The translations under genes and the position numbers were made by a program. From NCBI GenBank assembly GCA_001899255.1, contig MKVX01000018.1:497150-561149 (forward strand): 64,000 nt of DNA, written 5' to 3'. This DNA is from Rhizobiales bacterium 62-47. GTDB taxonomy: Bacteria; Pseudomonadota; Alphaproteobacteria; Rhizobiales; Xanthobacteraceae. Below are positions 55,427 to 61,950 of this stretch, one piece after another. The notes under the pieces are model-generated. The model was not told where the DNA came from. It searched no databases and saw only the letters and a program-made list of their open reading frames with translations. Position 1 is the first letter of the stretch, and every line of letters begins with the position of its first letter.

Positions 55427-55864
55427 TCAGGATACGATCTTCAAAGACCCGAGATGCAGCTCACTGCTGCTGTCGTTGATCGCCACGCGAATGTGGATCA
55501 TTCCGGGCGATTTGATTTCGAGGGGCGAGAAAACCAGACTTGCCGCAACGACGATGTAGGGCGGGATCGGCTGATCCTTCGGCAAGTTTCTCACCAGTTC
55601 GAGCTGGTCTTCGAGCGCCGGAACATCGATTGGTTCTTCTGCGATCGGCTGGTCTTCGCCCGGTATGTAGCAACGTGCGACCACGGACGTATAGGGCTGG
55701 GTTGCCGGCGAGAAGACGTAAAAATGGACGCAGAACTTCGGCAGCGTCACCGGAAATTCCCGGCCGACGAACATCACCGCATTGTAGCAACCGATGAAGC
55801 TGAGCTTTCCCCCGGGTTCATTGCGAATGTCGTCGCAGAAAATACTGTAGCCGTATCGCTCCAT
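55427..55864 (-). CDS. DUF6941-like protein, third gene of the toxin-antitoxin-type trio
   Basis: 145 residues beginning MERYGYSIFCDDIRNEPGGKLSFIGCYNAVMFVG. Beta-rich and likely cytoplasmic, without a signal peptide. Resembles DUF6941 proteins, a family without a known biochemical role. It starts 16 bp downstream of the XRE gene, so it is probably transcribed with it. Confidence 0.72.
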   Translation of the reverse strand: MERYGYSIFCDDIRNEPGGKLSFIGCYNAVMFVGREFPVTLPKFCVHFYVFSPATQPYTSVVARCYIPGEDQPIAEEPIDVPALEDQLELVRNLPKDQPIPPYIVVAASLVFSPLEIKSPGMIHIRVAINDSSSELHLGSLKIVS

Positions 55865-55880
55865 TACAGGCACTCAGACA

Positions 55881-56291
55881 TCATTGCTCGGCGCGAGGCT
55901 CCGGCTCGTTGGGCGCATGCGCCGACTGACCATTGGATCCGGTGCCGGAGCGGCCATTGATGAATCTGATCTGCCCATGGCTGATCGTTGATGTTGTGGT
56001 GCCTTCATTCTGACCGAACGTGTCCGGGCGCTCGCTCAGCTCGAACTTCAATTCCATGTCCATCGCCCAGGCGAGGTCGGCGAGGGAACGCAGCGTGAGA
56101 TTGCTCTCGCCGGACAATTGCCGATTCACCAGCGAGCGATGCACGCCCAGTTTCGTCGCCAATGCCTGTTGAGTTAAACCGTCCTTGGCTTTCTTTTCCG
56201 AAAGCGCCTTGAGCAGTTCGCTTCGAACCCGGCCGATAAAACGACCGGCCTTTCGTGCTCTGCTACCAACATCAAACTGAAATGACGTCAC
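55881..56291 (-). CDS. XRE-family HTH protein, antitoxin-like
   Basis: 136 residues. The HTH reads LTQQALATKLGVHRSLVNRQLSGESNLTLRSLADLAWAMDMEL, a lambda-repressor-like fold of the HigA type. The C-terminal 50 residues are low-complexity (GTTTSTISHGQ, GRSGTGSNGQ). Its start overlaps the upstream gene's end by 20 bp, consistent with a coupled pair in toxin-first order. Confidence 0.83.
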   Translation of the reverse strand: MTSFQFDVGSRARKAGRFIGRVRSELLKALSEKKAKDGLTQQALATKLGVHRSLVNRQLSGESNLTLRSLADLAWAMDMELKFELSERPDTFGQNEGTTTSTISHGQIRFINGRSGTGSNGQSAHAPNEPEPRAEQ

Positions 56292-56757
56292 TGGGAGAAG
56301 TTCCTTTTACGCAGAGATTATCCTCTACACCCAACTCACGACGCAAACGCCTTATCGCGATACGGTACCCGCGATACAAATCATGATCCTTAACGTGGTC
56401 GGCCCAGTCTCCAAATACGCCGACGAAACAATCGATTTTCAGAAACCATCCGAATATTCGGACGTCCGGCGTTTTCAGTTCCCAGACCGCATTCTCCTCA
56501 GCTCGAATAAACCTGAACTGGCGAAGATAGTTCAACGGTTTGCCGCTGACGAACGCATAAATGAGTTGGTCTACTTGCTCCGCTGGAGTTGTGTCGCCGA
56601 GCCGATGTTTCGGTTCAGCGCCTTGCAAAAGCGTATTCAGCCAATCGATGAAGCCGGGCGTTCCGTAAAACAGCCGGAGTGGCTGCTCGCCCACGGCCAA
56701 TTCGATTTCAATCTTTGAAATTGCCCCGTCTCTGATCAAGCCATCAATTGTCGACAT
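56272..56757 (-). CDS. RelE/HigB-like protein, candidate toxin
   Basis: 161 residues. The segment VWELKTPDVRIFGWFLKIDCFVGVFGDWADHVKDHDLY, followed by YRIAIRRLRRELG, fits the beta-sheet and helices of the HigB/RelE (Gp49-like) toxin fold. It is longer than typical HigB (about 90-110) because of an N-terminal extension. It overlaps an HTH antitoxin-like gene in the toxin-first order known for higBA. Toxicity is inferred. Confidence 0.65.
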   Translation of the reverse strand: MSTIDGLIRDGAISKIEIELAVGEQPLRLFYGTPGFIDWLNTLLQGAEPKHRLGDTTPAEQVDQLIYAFVSGKPLNYLRQFRFIRAEENAVWELKTPDVRIFGWFLKIDCFVGVFGDWADHVKDHDLYRGYRIAIRRLRRELGVEDNLCVKGTSPSDVISV

Positions 56758-57067
56758 ATAAATCTACAATCTTGGAGCCGTCAAAGAGAGAATTAACTGG
56801 AACTCTGGTGCGATATTAGGCTCCCCAACTCGCGACGGTCAACGGCAGGGGCAGTATTGTTGTGAATTATGCCCGTCGTTAGCTGCTTTCTGCAGTATTT
56901 GCGCGGTGGCGTGGAACCGGTTCCAATTCAATGCCGCAATATGTGGATGACGCAACCGATTAAGGTAAAAAGACTGTTTCCAATTGCGTATTTGATTAAA
57001 ATTCAGTTAATTTGCATTTGAGGGCAGCGATAATCGCCGGCCCCGCATTGGAAAACAGGGAATTGTC
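56758..57067. promoter_or_regulatory. AT-rich intergenic region between the toxin-like gene and the curlin gene
   Basis: 310 bp with no gene. The part nearest the curlin gene (about 56955-57020) is clearly AT-rich for this window, with runs such as taaaaag and ttgattaaaattcagttaattt, and is divergent between two transcription units. It should contain the curlin promoter and regulator sites, though I cannot mark exact boxes. Confidence 0.5.
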
Positions 57068-58759
57068 ATGAGGACATTGACAACGTTGGCCGTTCTATTG
57101 GCCACGACGTCGTTGGCGGCGGCTGCGGGCAACGAATCGTTTATCGCGCAAGTTGGCGCAGCGAACAACGCGTTGGTTGGACAGACCAGCGGCAATAACA
57201 AGCAAGCCACCATTCAGGCGGGCAAGAAGAATTCCGCAGTGACGTCGCAGTCCGCTGCCGGCTCGAACACCAACGAATCCGGAATCATGCAGATCGGTGC
57301 GAGCAACGGTGCGGCGGTCGGTCAGACCGGCGGCAACAACTCGCAAGGCACGATTCAGGTTGGCGCGAAGAACTTCGCGTCGACGTCGCAGACCAATGCT
57401 GCGGGCAGCAAGAAGAACAAGTCGGGCACCGCGCAGTTCGGTTATAGCAACGGTTCGGTCGTCGGCCAGACCGCCGGCAACAACACGCAGGGCACCCTGC
57501 AGGTTGGCGGCAAGAACTCGTCTACCACCGGTCAGACCACCAATGCTGATGGCGGCTTTAACTCGGCTCGCACCGGTCAGTTCGGCGTCGGCAACAACGC
57601 CGTGACGTCGCAGAACTCGACTGGTATTGCTGACAAGACCACGGGCCCTTCTTTCACCCGGCCCGGTGGCAACGGTGGTGACAACACCTCCGGCGTTCTG
57701 CAGGTCGGCTACCAGAATAACGCGCTGATCGGCCAGAACTCGGCCGGTTCCGGCAATGGTTTGTCCGCTCGCAGCGGCGTTGAGAACAACTCCGGTGCAG
57801 TTCAGATCGGTGGCAAGAACTTCGCCAGCGTCTCGCAGGACGGCACCCGTGCGGGCACGACTGCCAACGCGGCGAGCAACGACTCGTTCGTCGGTCAGTT
57901 CGGCTGGGCCAACGGTGCGCTGGTCGGCCAGAACGGTGGCAACAACTCGCAGGGCACGCTGCAGTTCGGTTCGCGTAACAGCGCAACGACCGGCCAGAAT
58001 GCGACTGACCTTGGTGCAACCAACTCGGCACTGACGCTGCAGGGCGGTTCGGGCAACAACGCGCTGACCTCGCAGGTCACGACCGGTTCTTCGGGTCTTC
58101 CGTCCGGTCACGGTGGCACGAACACCGCGGCGACGATGCAGTTCGGTAAGGGCAACAACGCCGTGACCGGTCAGGATTCGACCGGTGCTGGTGGCTTCCT
58201 GATCGCCAACAACGGCGTTGCCAACAATGCCGCGACGCTTCAGGTCGGCAAGGGCAACTATGCTGCGACCTCGCAGAGTGGCAACCGTCCGCTGGTGGGC
58301 GCTGATTCCGTCTCCAACGACTCGTTCGTCGGCCAGTTCGGTTCCGGCAACGGTGCAGTGGTCGGTCAGACCAACGGCCTGAACGGTCAGGCGACGGTTC
58401 AGATCGGCAAGGGCAACAGCGCCACCACGAGCCAGGCCAACGCCAAGGATTCGTTGAACCAGAACGCCGCTGTGACGTTCCAGGCCGGCCGCCACAACAA
58501 CGCGGTGACCAGCCAGATCGCCAACCCGCTGTCGGCTGGCATCAACGGCTCGCTGATCGCGCAGATCGGTAACGGCAACCAGGCTGCTGTGAGCCAGACC
58601 GGCATGCAGAACATGATCGGCGCCAATCTGCAGGGCACCGTGCAGGTCGGTAACGGCAACTACGCGACGACCGCTCAGGCGAGCGCCGCGAACGTGGCGA
58701 ACACGTCGGTTACGGCGCAGTTCGGCTCGCACAACGTTGCTGTCACGTCTCAGCACTAA
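57068..58759 (+). CDS. csgA: Large curlin-repeat amyloid subunit (CsgA-like), 20 repeats
   Basis: 563 residues. A signal peptide (MRTLTTLAVLLATTSLAAAAG) is followed by 20 curlin-type units of the form Q-x-G-x-x-N-x-A-x3-Q (for instance QVGAANNALVGQ, QAGKKNSAVTSQ, QFGSHNVAVTSQ). Many units alternate between ends in VGQ and in TSQ/TGQ. E. coli CsgA has five units in 151 residues, so this is about four times larger. It lacks Cys and is rich in Asn, Gln, Gly, Ser and Thr. Secreted through CsgG to form surface fibres, by family knowledge. A short hairpin follows its stop. Confidence 0.88.
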   Translation: MRTLTTLAVLLATTSLAAAAGNESFIAQVGAANNALVGQTSGNNKQATIQAGKKNSAVTSQSAAGSNTNESGIMQIGASNGAAVGQTGGNNSQGTIQVGAKNFASTSQTNAAGSKKNKSGTAQFGYSNGSVVGQTAGNNTQGTLQVGGKNSSTTGQTTNADGGFNSARTGQFGVGNNAVTSQNSTGIADKTTGPSFTRPGGNGGDNTSGVLQVGYQNNALIGQNSAGSGNGLSARSGVENNSGAVQIGGKNFASVSQDGTRAGTTANAASNDSFVGQFGWANGALVGQNGGNNSQGTLQFGSRNSATTGQNATDLGATNSALTLQGGSGNNALTSQVTTGSSGLPSGHGGTNTAATMQFGKGNNAVTGQDSTGAGGFLIANNGVANNAATLQVGKGNYAATSQSGNRPLVGADSVSNDSFVGQFGSGNGAVVGQTNGLNGQATVQIGKGNSATTSQANAKDSLNQNAAVTFQAGRHNNAVTSQIANPLSAGINGSLIAQIGNGNQAAVSQTGMQNMIGANLQGTVQVGNGNYATTAQASAANVANTSVTAQFGSHNVAVTSQH

Positions 58760-58816: not shown

Positions 58817-59206
58817 ATGCCGGACGTTCGTGCGACATCTCGAAAGCTTGTTTGGACCGCTGCTTGTCTGACGATGCTTCCGCTTTGCTCCGTATGGGCG
58901 CCTGTGCAGGCCGCGCCGACGACGAGTATCAATTGTCAGATACGCGTCACCGCCAACAAGGAAGCCGTTCGGCTTGAGGCAGTTGCGAGTACGCAGAAGC
59001 CGGCGTCCGGACGGTATCAGTTTCGAATTTTGAAGGAGAGCGTGAGCGGCACCAGTCAGAATGTTCAGAGCGGGTCGTTCGATTTGCAAGCTGACCGCGA
59101 GAGCGTTTTGACAACCGTCATTTTGGACGGGTCGGCCCTGGGCCATTACCAGGCAAAGCTTACTGTGGACTCTGATATCGGGAATACATCATGCGTTTCG
59201 CCGTAA
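58817..59206 (+). CDS. csgH: CsgH, periplasmic curli inhibitor/chaperone
   Basis: 129 residues: a signal peptide to about residue 32 and a beta-sandwich mature part. It carries two Cys (INCQIRVTANKEAVRLEAVAS and NTSCVSP) probably forming a disulfide. It matches the alphaproteobacterial CsgH described in R. palustris, which blocks premature amyloid formation in the periplasm. The 3' end overlaps the next gene by 16 bp. ATG 58817 preferred; a start at 58793 adds eight residues. Confidence 0.78.
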   Translation: MPDVRATSRKLVWTAACLTMLPLCSVWAPVQAAPTTSINCQIRVTANKEAVRLEAVASTQKPASGRYQFRILKESVSGTSQNVQSGSFDLQADRESVLTTVILDGSALGHYQAKLTVDSDIGNTSCVSP

Positions 59207-59712
59207 ATTTATGTTTGTCGTTTGTGGCGCTCTGCTGCACCGCACTTGTGATGCCGCTGCTGGCGATTGCGCTCAGCGTTCCGGCCTCTGCGGATGGCGC
59301 TTTCATTGAGCAAGCGGGGCGGGGAGCAGTGACCGGCCGGCACGTCGGCTTCAACGGTATGTCGCATTCGCAAGGCACCGTGGCGCCTCTGCAGTCGCGC
59401 GTTCCCGCATTTACTCCGCCGCCGGAGTTATCGGCACAGAGCGGCGGCAATTATGCGAGCACGCTGCAGATCGGTAATTATAATAAGGTTTTCCAGGCGC
59501 AGGCAGGTTCGAATAACCGCTCCAATGTAGGAATTATTAAGGGTGCCTATAACAATGTCGGCGTGTTGCAGGCCGGGCACAGCCTTCGTTCGAACCTTTT
59601 GCTACTTAATACAACAGGCCTTTCAGTTGGAGTTATTCAGCCAAACGGATCGGCGCCGATTAATATGCTGATCGCGCGATTGCCGAACGGAGGCCTCCTT
59701 ATTAAGCGTTAA
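59191..59712 (+). CDS. csgB: CsgB-like curlin-repeat protein (candidate nucleator)
   Basis: 173 residues with a signal peptide ending PASADG. A Pro/His-rich part separates it from a repeat region (about 85-150) containing YASTLQIGNYNKVFQAQAGSNN and NNVGVLQAG. The C-terminus (ARLPNGGLLIKR) is basic and hydrophobic, as in CsgB, which holds fibres at the cell surface. Assignment as nucleator is inferred. It overlaps csgH by 16 bp. Confidence 0.65.
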   Translation: MRFAVNLCLSFVALCCTALVMPLLAIALSVPASADGAFIEQAGRGAVTGRHVGFNGMSHSQGTVAPLQSRVPAFTPPPELSAQSGGNYASTLQIGNYNKVFQAQAGSNNRSNVGIIKGAYNNVGVLQAGHSLRSNLLLLNTTGLSVGVIQPNGSAPINMLIARLPNGGLLIKR

Positions 59713-59760: not shown

Positions 59761-60057
59761 ATGAGGTTGCTTGGCATTGTTGTCGCCGCAGCGGGGTGCG
59801 TTGCAGTCGCCAGCTCGGCATTGGCTACTGAACAGATTTATCGACCGGTGAGCCCGACATTCGGCGGCAATCCTCTCAACGGCAATTTCCTTTTGTCGAC
59901 GGCGCAAGCACAAGGTAACGGCGTCAAGTCGGGCAATCAGGGACCGGATCTTTCAGGCTTGAGTTCGGCATTGAGTGGGATTGGATCCGGAGCTGCTTCT
60001 CCGCCGATCGTTGTGATCGGTGGCAACGGTCTGCCTGTCGTGCCTGCAAGTCCGTAG
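59761..60057 (+). CDS. csgF: CsgF-like curli assembly protein
   Basis: 98 residues, a short form of CsgF (E. coli 138). After the signal peptide, the diagnostic segment PTFGGNPLNGNFLLSTAQAQGN is intact; this is the part that plugs into the CsgG pore. The C-terminal part is a Gly/Ser/Pro stretch. ATG 59761 follows ggggg at 8 nt. In known systems CsgF couples secretion to nucleation. Confidence 0.85.
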   Translation: MRLLGIVVAAAGCVAVASSALATEQIYRPVSPTFGGNPLNGNFLLSTAQAQGNGVKSGNQGPDLSGLSSALSGIGSGAASPPIVVIGGNGLPVVPASP

Positions 60058-60117: not shown

Positions 60118-61020
60118 GTGCGCGTGGCGTCGTTGTATTTCAGGTTGGCGTGCGTTTCGCTGCTCGCTGTTTCCGCGGGCGGTTGCGCCATCACTGGTAC
60201 AACGAGGGACCCGGTGACTGAGCCGGCGCGCCTCGTGCAGCCGACCAAAACCGGTGTCGTGCTCGACAATCTGCCGCCGCCCCGGCAGAAGCTCGACGTC
60301 TCTGTCTATAATTTTCCCGATCTGACTGGTCAGAACAAATCGAACGATAACTTCGCTGAGTTCTCGCGCGCGGTGACGCAGGGCGGAAGTTCGATCCTCA
60401 CTGACGTGCTGGTCAAGGCTGGCGGTGGCGCCTGGTTCGACGTTGCCGAACGTGCGGATCTGCAGCCTCTGCTCCAGGAACGCCAGATCATTCAGAACAC
60501 GCGGACGGCGCTGCAAGGGAAGAACGCACAGAGCCTGCCGCCGCTGCGCTTCGCGGGCGTGTTGCTTGAAGGTGGTGTCGTCGGTTACGACACCAACGAA
60601 ACCACCGGTGGCGTCGGCGCGAACTATCTCGGCATCGGCGGCAACGTGCAGTACCGTCAGGATATCATCACCGTCGCGTTGCGTGCGGTGAGCGTGCAGA
60701 CCGGCCGCGTGCTGGCGTCGGTGACGACGACTAAGATCGTCTACTCGGTGAATGTGAGCGGCAGCGGCTTCCAGTTCGCCGCCATCGATCATCTGCTGCA
60801 GGCCGACGTCGGCTTCACCAAGAACTCGCCGGCGACATTGGCGGTGCGGGAAGGCATTCAGCTCGCGGTCTACTCGCTCATCTTTGAAGGTGTGAAGACC
60901 GGGCTTTGGGAATTCAAGGATCCGCGCGCCGGCGATGCCTTCATGCGTGAACTCGAATTGCATCAGAAGGCAGTCGTGCCGGCATCCGCCGCCGTGCCGG
61001 ATGCCGCCAAGGCAAGCTAG
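60118..61020 (+). CDS. csgG: CsgG, outer-membrane curli secretion lipoprotein
   Basis: 300 residues. The lipobox VSAGGC puts the lipidated residue at Cys23. Family landmarks are DVSVYNFPDLTGQNK, DVLVKAGGGAWFDVAERADLQPLLQERQII and TVALRAVSVQTGRVLASVTTTKIVYS. It forms a nonameric secretion channel with CsgF on top. GTG 60118 is preferred, with gggg about 6 nt upstream. Last gene of the plus-strand group. Confidence 0.93.
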   Translation: MRVASLYFRLACVSLLAVSAGGCAITGTTRDPVTEPARLVQPTKTGVVLDNLPPPRQKLDVSVYNFPDLTGQNKSNDNFAEFSRAVTQGGSSILTDVLVKAGGGAWFDVAERADLQPLLQERQIIQNTRTALQGKNAQSLPPLRFAGVLLEGGVVGYDTNETTGGVGANYLGIGGNVQYRQDIITVALRAVSVQTGRVLASVTTTKIVYSVNVSGSGFQFAAIDHLLQADVGFTKNSPATLAVREGIQLAVYSLIFEGVKTGLWEFKDPRAGDAFMRELELHQKAVVPASAAVPDAAKAS

Positions 61021-61095: not shown

Positions 61096-61422
61096 TCAGC
61101 GCGTGGGTGGCCGAGCCTGTTGCGTGGCGCTGTAGCAGGCGGGCGACGACGCATTTTGCTGATTGCAGGTGACGGGTGTCGTCGGACTTCCAGCGGCGGC
61201 ACCCGATGGATTGGAGCCGCTTTCGGGAGCCAGCTTGGATTTCGACCGGCCGCGCGCCTGTTCGGTTACCCCCGGCGGGATATTGCCGTGCGATTGCTGG
61301 ATGCGAACTTCGGATGCGTATCGTGCGCGGCGATGATGGCTCTTGCCATTCGCCACGGCCTCCTGGAGGCATACAAGCAATCCGGCCGCGCTAACCGCCG
61401 CGATGATGACCTGGCCTCGCAT
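61096..61422 (-). CDS. Small secreted protein, unknown
   Basis: 108 residues with a signal peptide (MRGQVIIAAVSAAGLLVCLQEAVA) and a basic start HHRRARYASEV. The rest is Ser/Pro/Gln/Ala-rich, with two Cys (TCNQQNASSPACYSA). No family recognised. It lies opposite in direction to csgG. It starts from ATG 61422 with a gagg about 9 nt upstream. Confidence 0.55.
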   Translation of the reverse strand: MRGQVIIAAVSAAGLLVCLQEAVANGKSHHRRARYASEVRIQQSHGNIPPGVTEQARGRSKSKLAPESGSNPSGAAAGSPTTPVTCNQQNASSPACYSATQQARPPTR

Positions 61423-61608
61423 AGTCCCAAACCTCGACAACTTACGAACCCTTCGGCTGCCTGCAGTTATGCGAAGCAAGCACCATCGTTGTGAGCGTAG
61501 CATTTTGGACAGGCAGCAGGCAAACAATCGCTACCGCCATACCCCGTGTTGCCGGGCAGAACTCGCGTTCTTCGTGTCGATGGGTGAGGTGACGAGGCCG
61601 TGGCGCTG

Positions 61609-61950
61609 TCAGCGCGTGCCGCCCTGCGTGACGATCGCTCGATTGAGCGAGCCTTGCTGTGCGACCAACGAGAGATTGCCGCCGCCATTCTGTGAGACCA
61701 CGGCCAGATTGGCCGACCCGCTCTGCGAGATCGAGGATACGTTGCCGTTCATGCCGGGCTTGATCTCGGTTGCGAGTTTGACGTCGCTCAGCTTGATAGG
61801 GGAGGCCAGCATCTGCTCCAGGCCGGCATGGACGAACGCCTTCTGTGGACCTGACCAGCTGGGCTGCGCGATGTAGGCCTCGCCTGCATAAGCCGCTCCG
61901 TTGGCGAGTGCCACAATGGCGGCGACGAAATACCCCTGCGCGACTGTCAT
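61609..61950 (-). CDS. Small curlin-repeat protein, opposite strand to the curli genes
   Basis: 113 residues. Signal peptide (MTVAQGYFVAAIVALANGAAYA) then an N-terminal spacer and three repeat units at the C-terminus: SISQSGSANLAVVSQ, NGGGNLSLVAQ and QQGSLNRAIVTQ. The last resembles E. coli CsgB's AVVAQEGSSNRAKIDQ. caggag SD precedes ATG 61950. Could be a minor curlin or nucleator. Confidence 0.75.
   Translation of the reverse strand: MTVAQGYFVAAIVALANGAAYAGEAYIAQPSWSGPQKAFVHAGLEQMLASPIKLSDVKLATEIKPGMNGNVSSISQSGSANLAVVSQNGGGNLSLVAQQGSLNRAIVTQGGTR

Follow-up and report, generated by a model that had tools for sequence, protein, structure and literature searches.

The curlins described so far have between 4 and 62 repeats, and repeat number peaks locally at 5, 7-8, 15 and 22 (PMC10192328); 22 repeats was already the record in 2012 (PMC3521004). 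CsgA of Pontibacter korlensis (R15.5; PDB 8c50) is a long one-piece solenoid of 15.5 canonical repeats, reported to be highly regular, which forms fibres with an inter-repeat distance of 4.8 Å (PMC10192328). E. coli CsgA (PDB 8enq) has five repeats, an N22 segment and CsgE and CsgC as partners; the N22 segment is described as exceptional among curlins, not typical of them (Sleutel et al.). In the Alphaproteobacteria, the absence of CsgE has been reported (PMC3521004), csgH lies beside csgA in the described operons (Dueholm 2012; Taylor 2016) and CsgH from Rhodopseudomonas palustris inhibits curlin nucleation (PMC4838910).

We compared these systems with a curli locus of Rhizobiales bacterium 62-47, a relative of Bradyrhizobium in the same family, located within a stretch of 64,000 nucleotides (hereafter the window; contig MKVX01000018.1, positions 497,150 to 561,149). 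The csg genes of the window are the following.

57068..58759, + strand: csgA, major curlin of 563 residues, with a signal peptide (about residues 1-20) and 20 curlin repeats (from the ORF, repeat parse, Pfam/NCBIfam and AlphaFold2)
58817..59206, + strand: csgH, periplasmic anti-nucleation chaperone (PF21112, E = 6e-12; NF041112, 1.9e-24; CsgH structure PDB 2N59, E = 1.1e-6)
59191..59712, + strand: minor curlin (csgB-like), its start overlapping the end of csgH (weak NF007506 match, E = 0.006; position kept in nearly all related loci)
59761..60057, + strand: csgF (PF10614, E = 5e-11)
60118..61020, + strand: csgG, outer-membrane curli secretion channel (PF03783, E = 5e-52)
61609..61950, - strand: second minor curlin-like protein (PF07012, E = 1.6e-7; start set at the signal peptide, the longer ORF reaching 62121)

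The same gene set is present in Rhodopseudomonas, Bradyrhizobium, Methylobacterium and Rhizobium, and a 143-aa ORF on the opposite strand just downstream of csgG (61096-61527, -) is also conserved in many related loci. No CsgE was found in the genome at E ≤ 0.001 by a search whose control finds the protein in E. coli. With csgH beside csgA and no csgE, the locus is of the alphaproteobacterial CsgH type rather than the E. coli type; given that csgH, a csgB-like gene, csgF and csgG all follow csgA, the system most likely works as ordinary curli. Relative to E. coli CsgA, the window protein shares the repeat type and the predicted fold, but it has 20 repeats rather than five, and CsgH stands in place of CsgC.

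The csgA reading frame begins with ATG. The strict motif Q-x-G-x2-N-x-A-x3-Q occurs 18 times in its product, or 20 times if Ser is permitted for Ala, and the upstream half N-x5-Q is present in all 20 units, which makes them full two-strand, non-overlapping curlin repeats. The complete form N-x5-Q-x-G-x2-N-x-[AS]-x3-Q is found exactly 20 times, in agreement with the 20 units of the original prediction. The mature protein is repeat throughout: its start adjoins repeat 1 and it ends one residue past repeat 20. The product matches Pfam Curlin_rpt (PF07012) above the model's cut-off when searched whole (E = 4.7e-9), although the whole-genome search with this model missed the csgA repeats and listed the minor curlin alone. 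The NCBIfam CsgA model gives 3.4e-16 and 59.5 bits, short of its equivalog cut-off of 160; because that model defines a short enterobacterial group, the shortfall limits a claim of E. coli CsgA orthology by NCBIfam but not membership of the curlin family. The NCBIfam CsgB model also matches. Tandem repeats in 20 of 20 units, csgG and other csg genes downstream and a predicted β-solenoid identify the product as a major curlin. It is an ordinary member of the CsgA family with some new locus detail; its main new features are the arrangement of repeats in fives and an RNA hairpin, conserved among relatives, immediately ahead of csgA.

When the whole CsgA protein was used as a query against 61 relatives, only the window itself was recovered. 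With CsgG as bait instead, 36 related loci were obtained, in which CsgA has mostly 14-34 repeats and one member has five. The protein had been called giant by comparison with the five repeats of E. coli CsgA. This description is misleading, since 20 repeats fall inside the published range, 22 had been reported by 2012 and most orthologues here have 14-34. A Microvirga homologue (L050:13027-16134, -) has 34 repeats and inter-repeat loops of up to 81 residues, and relatives in Methylobacterium have two mid-protein loops of about 60-70 residues.

The repeats of the window CsgA differ mainly in arc2, the link between successive repeats. The lengths of arc2 along the protein are 4,7 / 4,8 / 4,8,23,16,13 / 4,8,15,16,13 / 4,9,9,9,7. 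Arc2 has exactly four residues after repeats 1, 3, 5, 10 and 15, and precisely these five repeats end in VGQ (a coincidence with a chance of 1 in 11,628). Each VGQ repeat, its four-residue arc2 and the N-x-Q repeat that follows thus form an AB pair. In a comparison of 24 proteins (the window CsgA and 23 relatives), two consecutive four-residue arcs never occur, and the repeat immediately after a four-residue arc is of the N-x-Q type in 123 of 127 cases, against 34 of 300 after other arcs. Only repeats 1-2, 3-4, 5-6, 10-11 and 15-16 form AB pairs; no alternation is seen in repeats 7-9, 12-14 and 17-20, and arcs outside the pairs range from 7 to 23 residues. The original prediction that units ending in VGQ are paired with units ending in TSQ or TGQ therefore captured a real unit type, but one that covers 10 of the 20 repeats.

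To look for periods, we compared repeats at each shift, with shuffled repeat order as the control. Shift 5 gave the strongest signal (DNA p < 2e-4, protein p = 4e-4), whereas shift 2 was weaker (DNA p about 0.01, protein p about 0.025) and driven by repeats 1-6. TRF reported a two-repeat period only, of 144 nt, at 57175-57519. The shift-5 signal and the arc2 lengths together indicate a layout of two AB pairs followed by three blocks, each opening with an AB pair:

57131..57559, + strand: repeats 1-6, three AB pairs, of which the third (repeats 5-6, from 57416) also opens five-repeat block 1 (repeat parse, shift 2, TRF)
57416..57877, + strand: five-repeat block 1, repeats 5-9, arc2 of 4, 8, 23, 16 and 13 residues (shift-5 periodicity)
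57878..58315, + strand: five-repeat block 2, repeats 10-14, arc2 of 4, 8, 15, 16 and 13 residues (shift-5 periodicity)
58316..58756, + strand: C-terminal module, repeats 15-20, arc2 of 4, 9, 9, 9 and 7 residues, carrying the IANPL and MIGA loops and ending in a single basic residue
58517-58543 and 58598-58624, + strand: IANPL and MIGA loops, arc2 after repeats 17 and 18, kept across genera where arc2 is otherwise variable

At the DNA level, repeats 10 and 15 share 85% identity. This layout distinguishes the protein from P. korlensis CsgA, whose regular repeats contrast with the AB/five-repeat pattern of arc2 and the loops of up to 23 residues seen here. Relative to alphaproteobacterial csgH operons as published, the window adds three things of which we found no account in the open-access papers searched: the layout in blocks of five repeats, the hairpin of the leader and a cassette linked to the locus on its upstream side.

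Conservation is concentrated at the two ends of the protein. Among 17 diverse homologues, identity at variable positions is 0.48 in the first repeat and 0.57 in the last, against 0.25 in internal repeats, and the final residue of CsgA is a single H, K or R in 36 of 36. In most genera, the last four repeats also carry the loops IANPL and G-x-Q-x-MIGA, which are a possible contact site for CsgB, CsgF or CsgG. Judging from conservation, the end repeats may be where one subunit stacks against the next or against the minor curlin, and we read the pattern as one of putatively fixed docking ends around a middle of adjustable length.

AlphaFold2 predicted CsgA as one continuous β-solenoid of ~40 strands (mean pLDDT 86.7, pTM 0.84) from a repeat-rich alignment only 14 deep (the window CsgA and 13 orthologues), in which the motif could force the register. 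Two strands are predicted per repeat along the entire chain, and confidence falls mainly in the long arc2 loops. The closest PDB entry by both fold and sequence is the P. korlensis protein 8c50. The continuous solenoid and this match to a long CsgA support the very long β-helical curlin originally predicted, for which structure prediction had been the proposed check.

Taken together, it is very probable that the window gene encodes the major curlin subunit, secreted, seeded by a minor curlin and fibre-forming, of an alphaproteobacterial curli system that has CsgH and lacks CsgE. The signal peptide would export CsgA to the periplasm, where CsgH would keep it from nucleating, and CsgG, together with CsgF, would let the unfolded protein out. 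Once outside, it would fold on a minor curlin seed into a solenoid of 20 rungs, and successive solenoids would join by their ends to build the amyloid fibres of a curli biofilm. The first and last repeats would serve as docking faces, while the inner repeats would set the number of rungs and bear the variable surface loops. At 4.8 Å per rung, one subunit would contribute ~9.6 nm of fibre, compared with about 2.4 nm for E. coli CsgA. The route by which CsgG recognizes CsgA is putative, as the protein shows no N22 targeting of the E. coli kind and the genome has no CsgE. We initially considered the missing N22 segment a novelty but dropped this point, N22 having been reported as an outlier among curlins.

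The second new feature lies directly upstream of the coding sequence:

57020..57070, + strand: csgA leader, consisting of the hairpin GGGC-GCGA/TCGC-GCCC and the ribosome-binding region up to the ATG (covariation; strong matches only in csg loci)

A hairpin within the 50 bases before the ATG is common to Bradyrhizobium, Rhodopseudomonas, Bosea, Methylobacterium and Rhizobium. Bases pair in 93.6% of the compared cells, both sides change in three of the eight pairs, and sliding the partner by 1-3 columns reduces pairing to about half or less. The leader has no match in Rfam. A covariance model of the leader gave nine strong matches in eight of 250 family genomes, with three weak matches (E > 1e-4) standing outside these nine. 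The strong matches are the window itself, seven in csg loci of other genomes (assigned by position beside CsgG or the 161-aa gene described below) and one that precedes a second csgA on another contig of genome G237, a gene absent from the model's training set. In Bradyrhizobium sp. STM 3843 (L091, G237:C338), a further long csgA is thus preceded by a leader hairpin of its own. The window leader does not fold with better energy than its shuffles (z = 0.02), so that support for the leader comes from covariation and genomic specificity and not from energy. Two other upstream elements were set aside: the window lacks the operator TGTTGAC-N6-GTCAACA that precedes csgA in loci of Rhodopseudomonas and Bradyrhizobium, and no conservation was seen for the palindrome GGAACCGGTTCC located 155 bp upstream.

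How the array reached 20 repeats can be addressed by comparison with relatives. According to the original prediction, it grew by duplication of two-unit blocks; a rival reading takes this growth to be recent and the copy number to differ between strains. Recent two-repeat tandem duplication would account for the shift-2 similarity in repeats 1-6 and the 144-nt tandem period, and expansion of AB blocks is indeed visible in Methylobacterium, where their DNA is 91-92% identical. In the window, however, AB blocks reach at most 73% identity, no exact 21-mer is repeated within csgA and the five-repeat period is stronger than the two-repeat one. Moreover, in an alignment of whole repeats all 20 pair 1:1 with those of Bradyrhizobium australiense (L029) and Bosea sp. 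47.2.35 (L036), with collinearity scores of 514 and 341 against shuffled-order maxima of 265 and 214. These two proteins also share the AB pairs at repeats 1, 3, 5, 10 and 15 and the same C-terminal loops, although their overall identity to the window CsgA is 66% and 61%, respectively, and their loop lengths differ. The shared repeat order indicates that the 20-repeat array is old and not a product of recent growth, which makes recent two-repeat duplication improbable here. Growth by two repeats thus occurs within the family, clearly so in Methylobacterium, while the window array, as judged from its sequence, is old, is shared with relatives and lies inside the size range known for curlins. 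CsgA of Rhodopseudomonas AAP120 has 15 repeats, and its arcs fit an array shorter by one five-repeat block.

Two further readings concern the function of the protein rather than its history. An adhesin or other surface protein could merely use curlin repeats without being a fibre subunit; curlin-like repeats are present in large Shewanella adhesins (PMC3521004), and long inter-repeat loops (up to 23 residues here and up to 81 in relatives) could bear binding sites. Yet all sequence outside the loops consists of canonical repeats, CsgA has no anchor or other domain, and in well-covered relatives csgA sits with csgH, csgB, csgF and csgG, so that we regard this reading as very unlikely. It is just as doubtful that the csg locus is decaying and curli are not made. 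Its distribution is patchy, as CsgG was found in 20 of 250 family genomes and in two of eight genomes of the same genus, but csgA carries no frameshift and keeps its 20 repeats whole, the reading frames of all csg genes are open, and the leader and end repeats are visibly constrained. Within the genus, one other sampled genome has CsgG (G001, locus L003); its CsgG is only 52% identical to that of the window and its curlin is a different one, whereas CsgG of Rhodopseudomonas AAP120 is 84% identical. Horizontal transfer and differential loss of the locus are candidate readings of this contrast. A fibre-forming major curlin remains the preferred reading of the window gene.

Upstream of csgA, on the opposite strand, lies a cassette of three genes:

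56275-56757, - strand: gene for a 161-aa protein with no assigned family
55884-56291, - strand: HTH gene (XRE-type), overlapping the 161-aa gene by 17 nt
55430-55873, - strand: DUF6941 gene

Nearly all related loci have the cassette close to their csg genes, including those, such as that of Bosea, in which it has moved across csgG. Across Hyphomicrobiales it (55430-56757, -) is tied to curli loci that have a long CsgA and no csgD. Among the 250 family genomes, the 161-aa gene is present in eight of 20 with CsgG and in two of 230 without it (Fisher 1.5e-8), and the latter two match only weakly, at about 33% identity. The 17-nt overlap gives the 161-aa and HTH genes a toxin-antitoxin-like look. 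The 161-aa protein has no meaningful match in Pfam, NCBIfam, PADLOC or PDB, and its AlphaFold2 model (pLDDT 44.7) is too poor to use; a RelE/HigB-like reading of its β-β-β-helix end would be only a guess.

We hypothesize that the cassette has a regulatory role. No paper was found on how curli systems without csgD are controlled. One tentative proposal, which we consider possible but not probable, is that the csgD-less curli of Hyphomicrobiales are run by a module of their own, in which the leader hairpin would act on translation or mRNA stability, the divergent toxin-antitoxin-like pair and DUF6941 would form a curli switch, and length would be tuned by whole AB or five-repeat blocks between fixed docking ends.

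These results place a curlin that had seemed giant within an old, conserved class. They suggest a simple rule for change in curlin length, in which the ends and the C-terminal loops are kept while AB pairs or blocks of five repeats come and go in the middle, and they make the leader hairpin and the linked cassette candidate regulators for curli systems without the master regulator CsgD.
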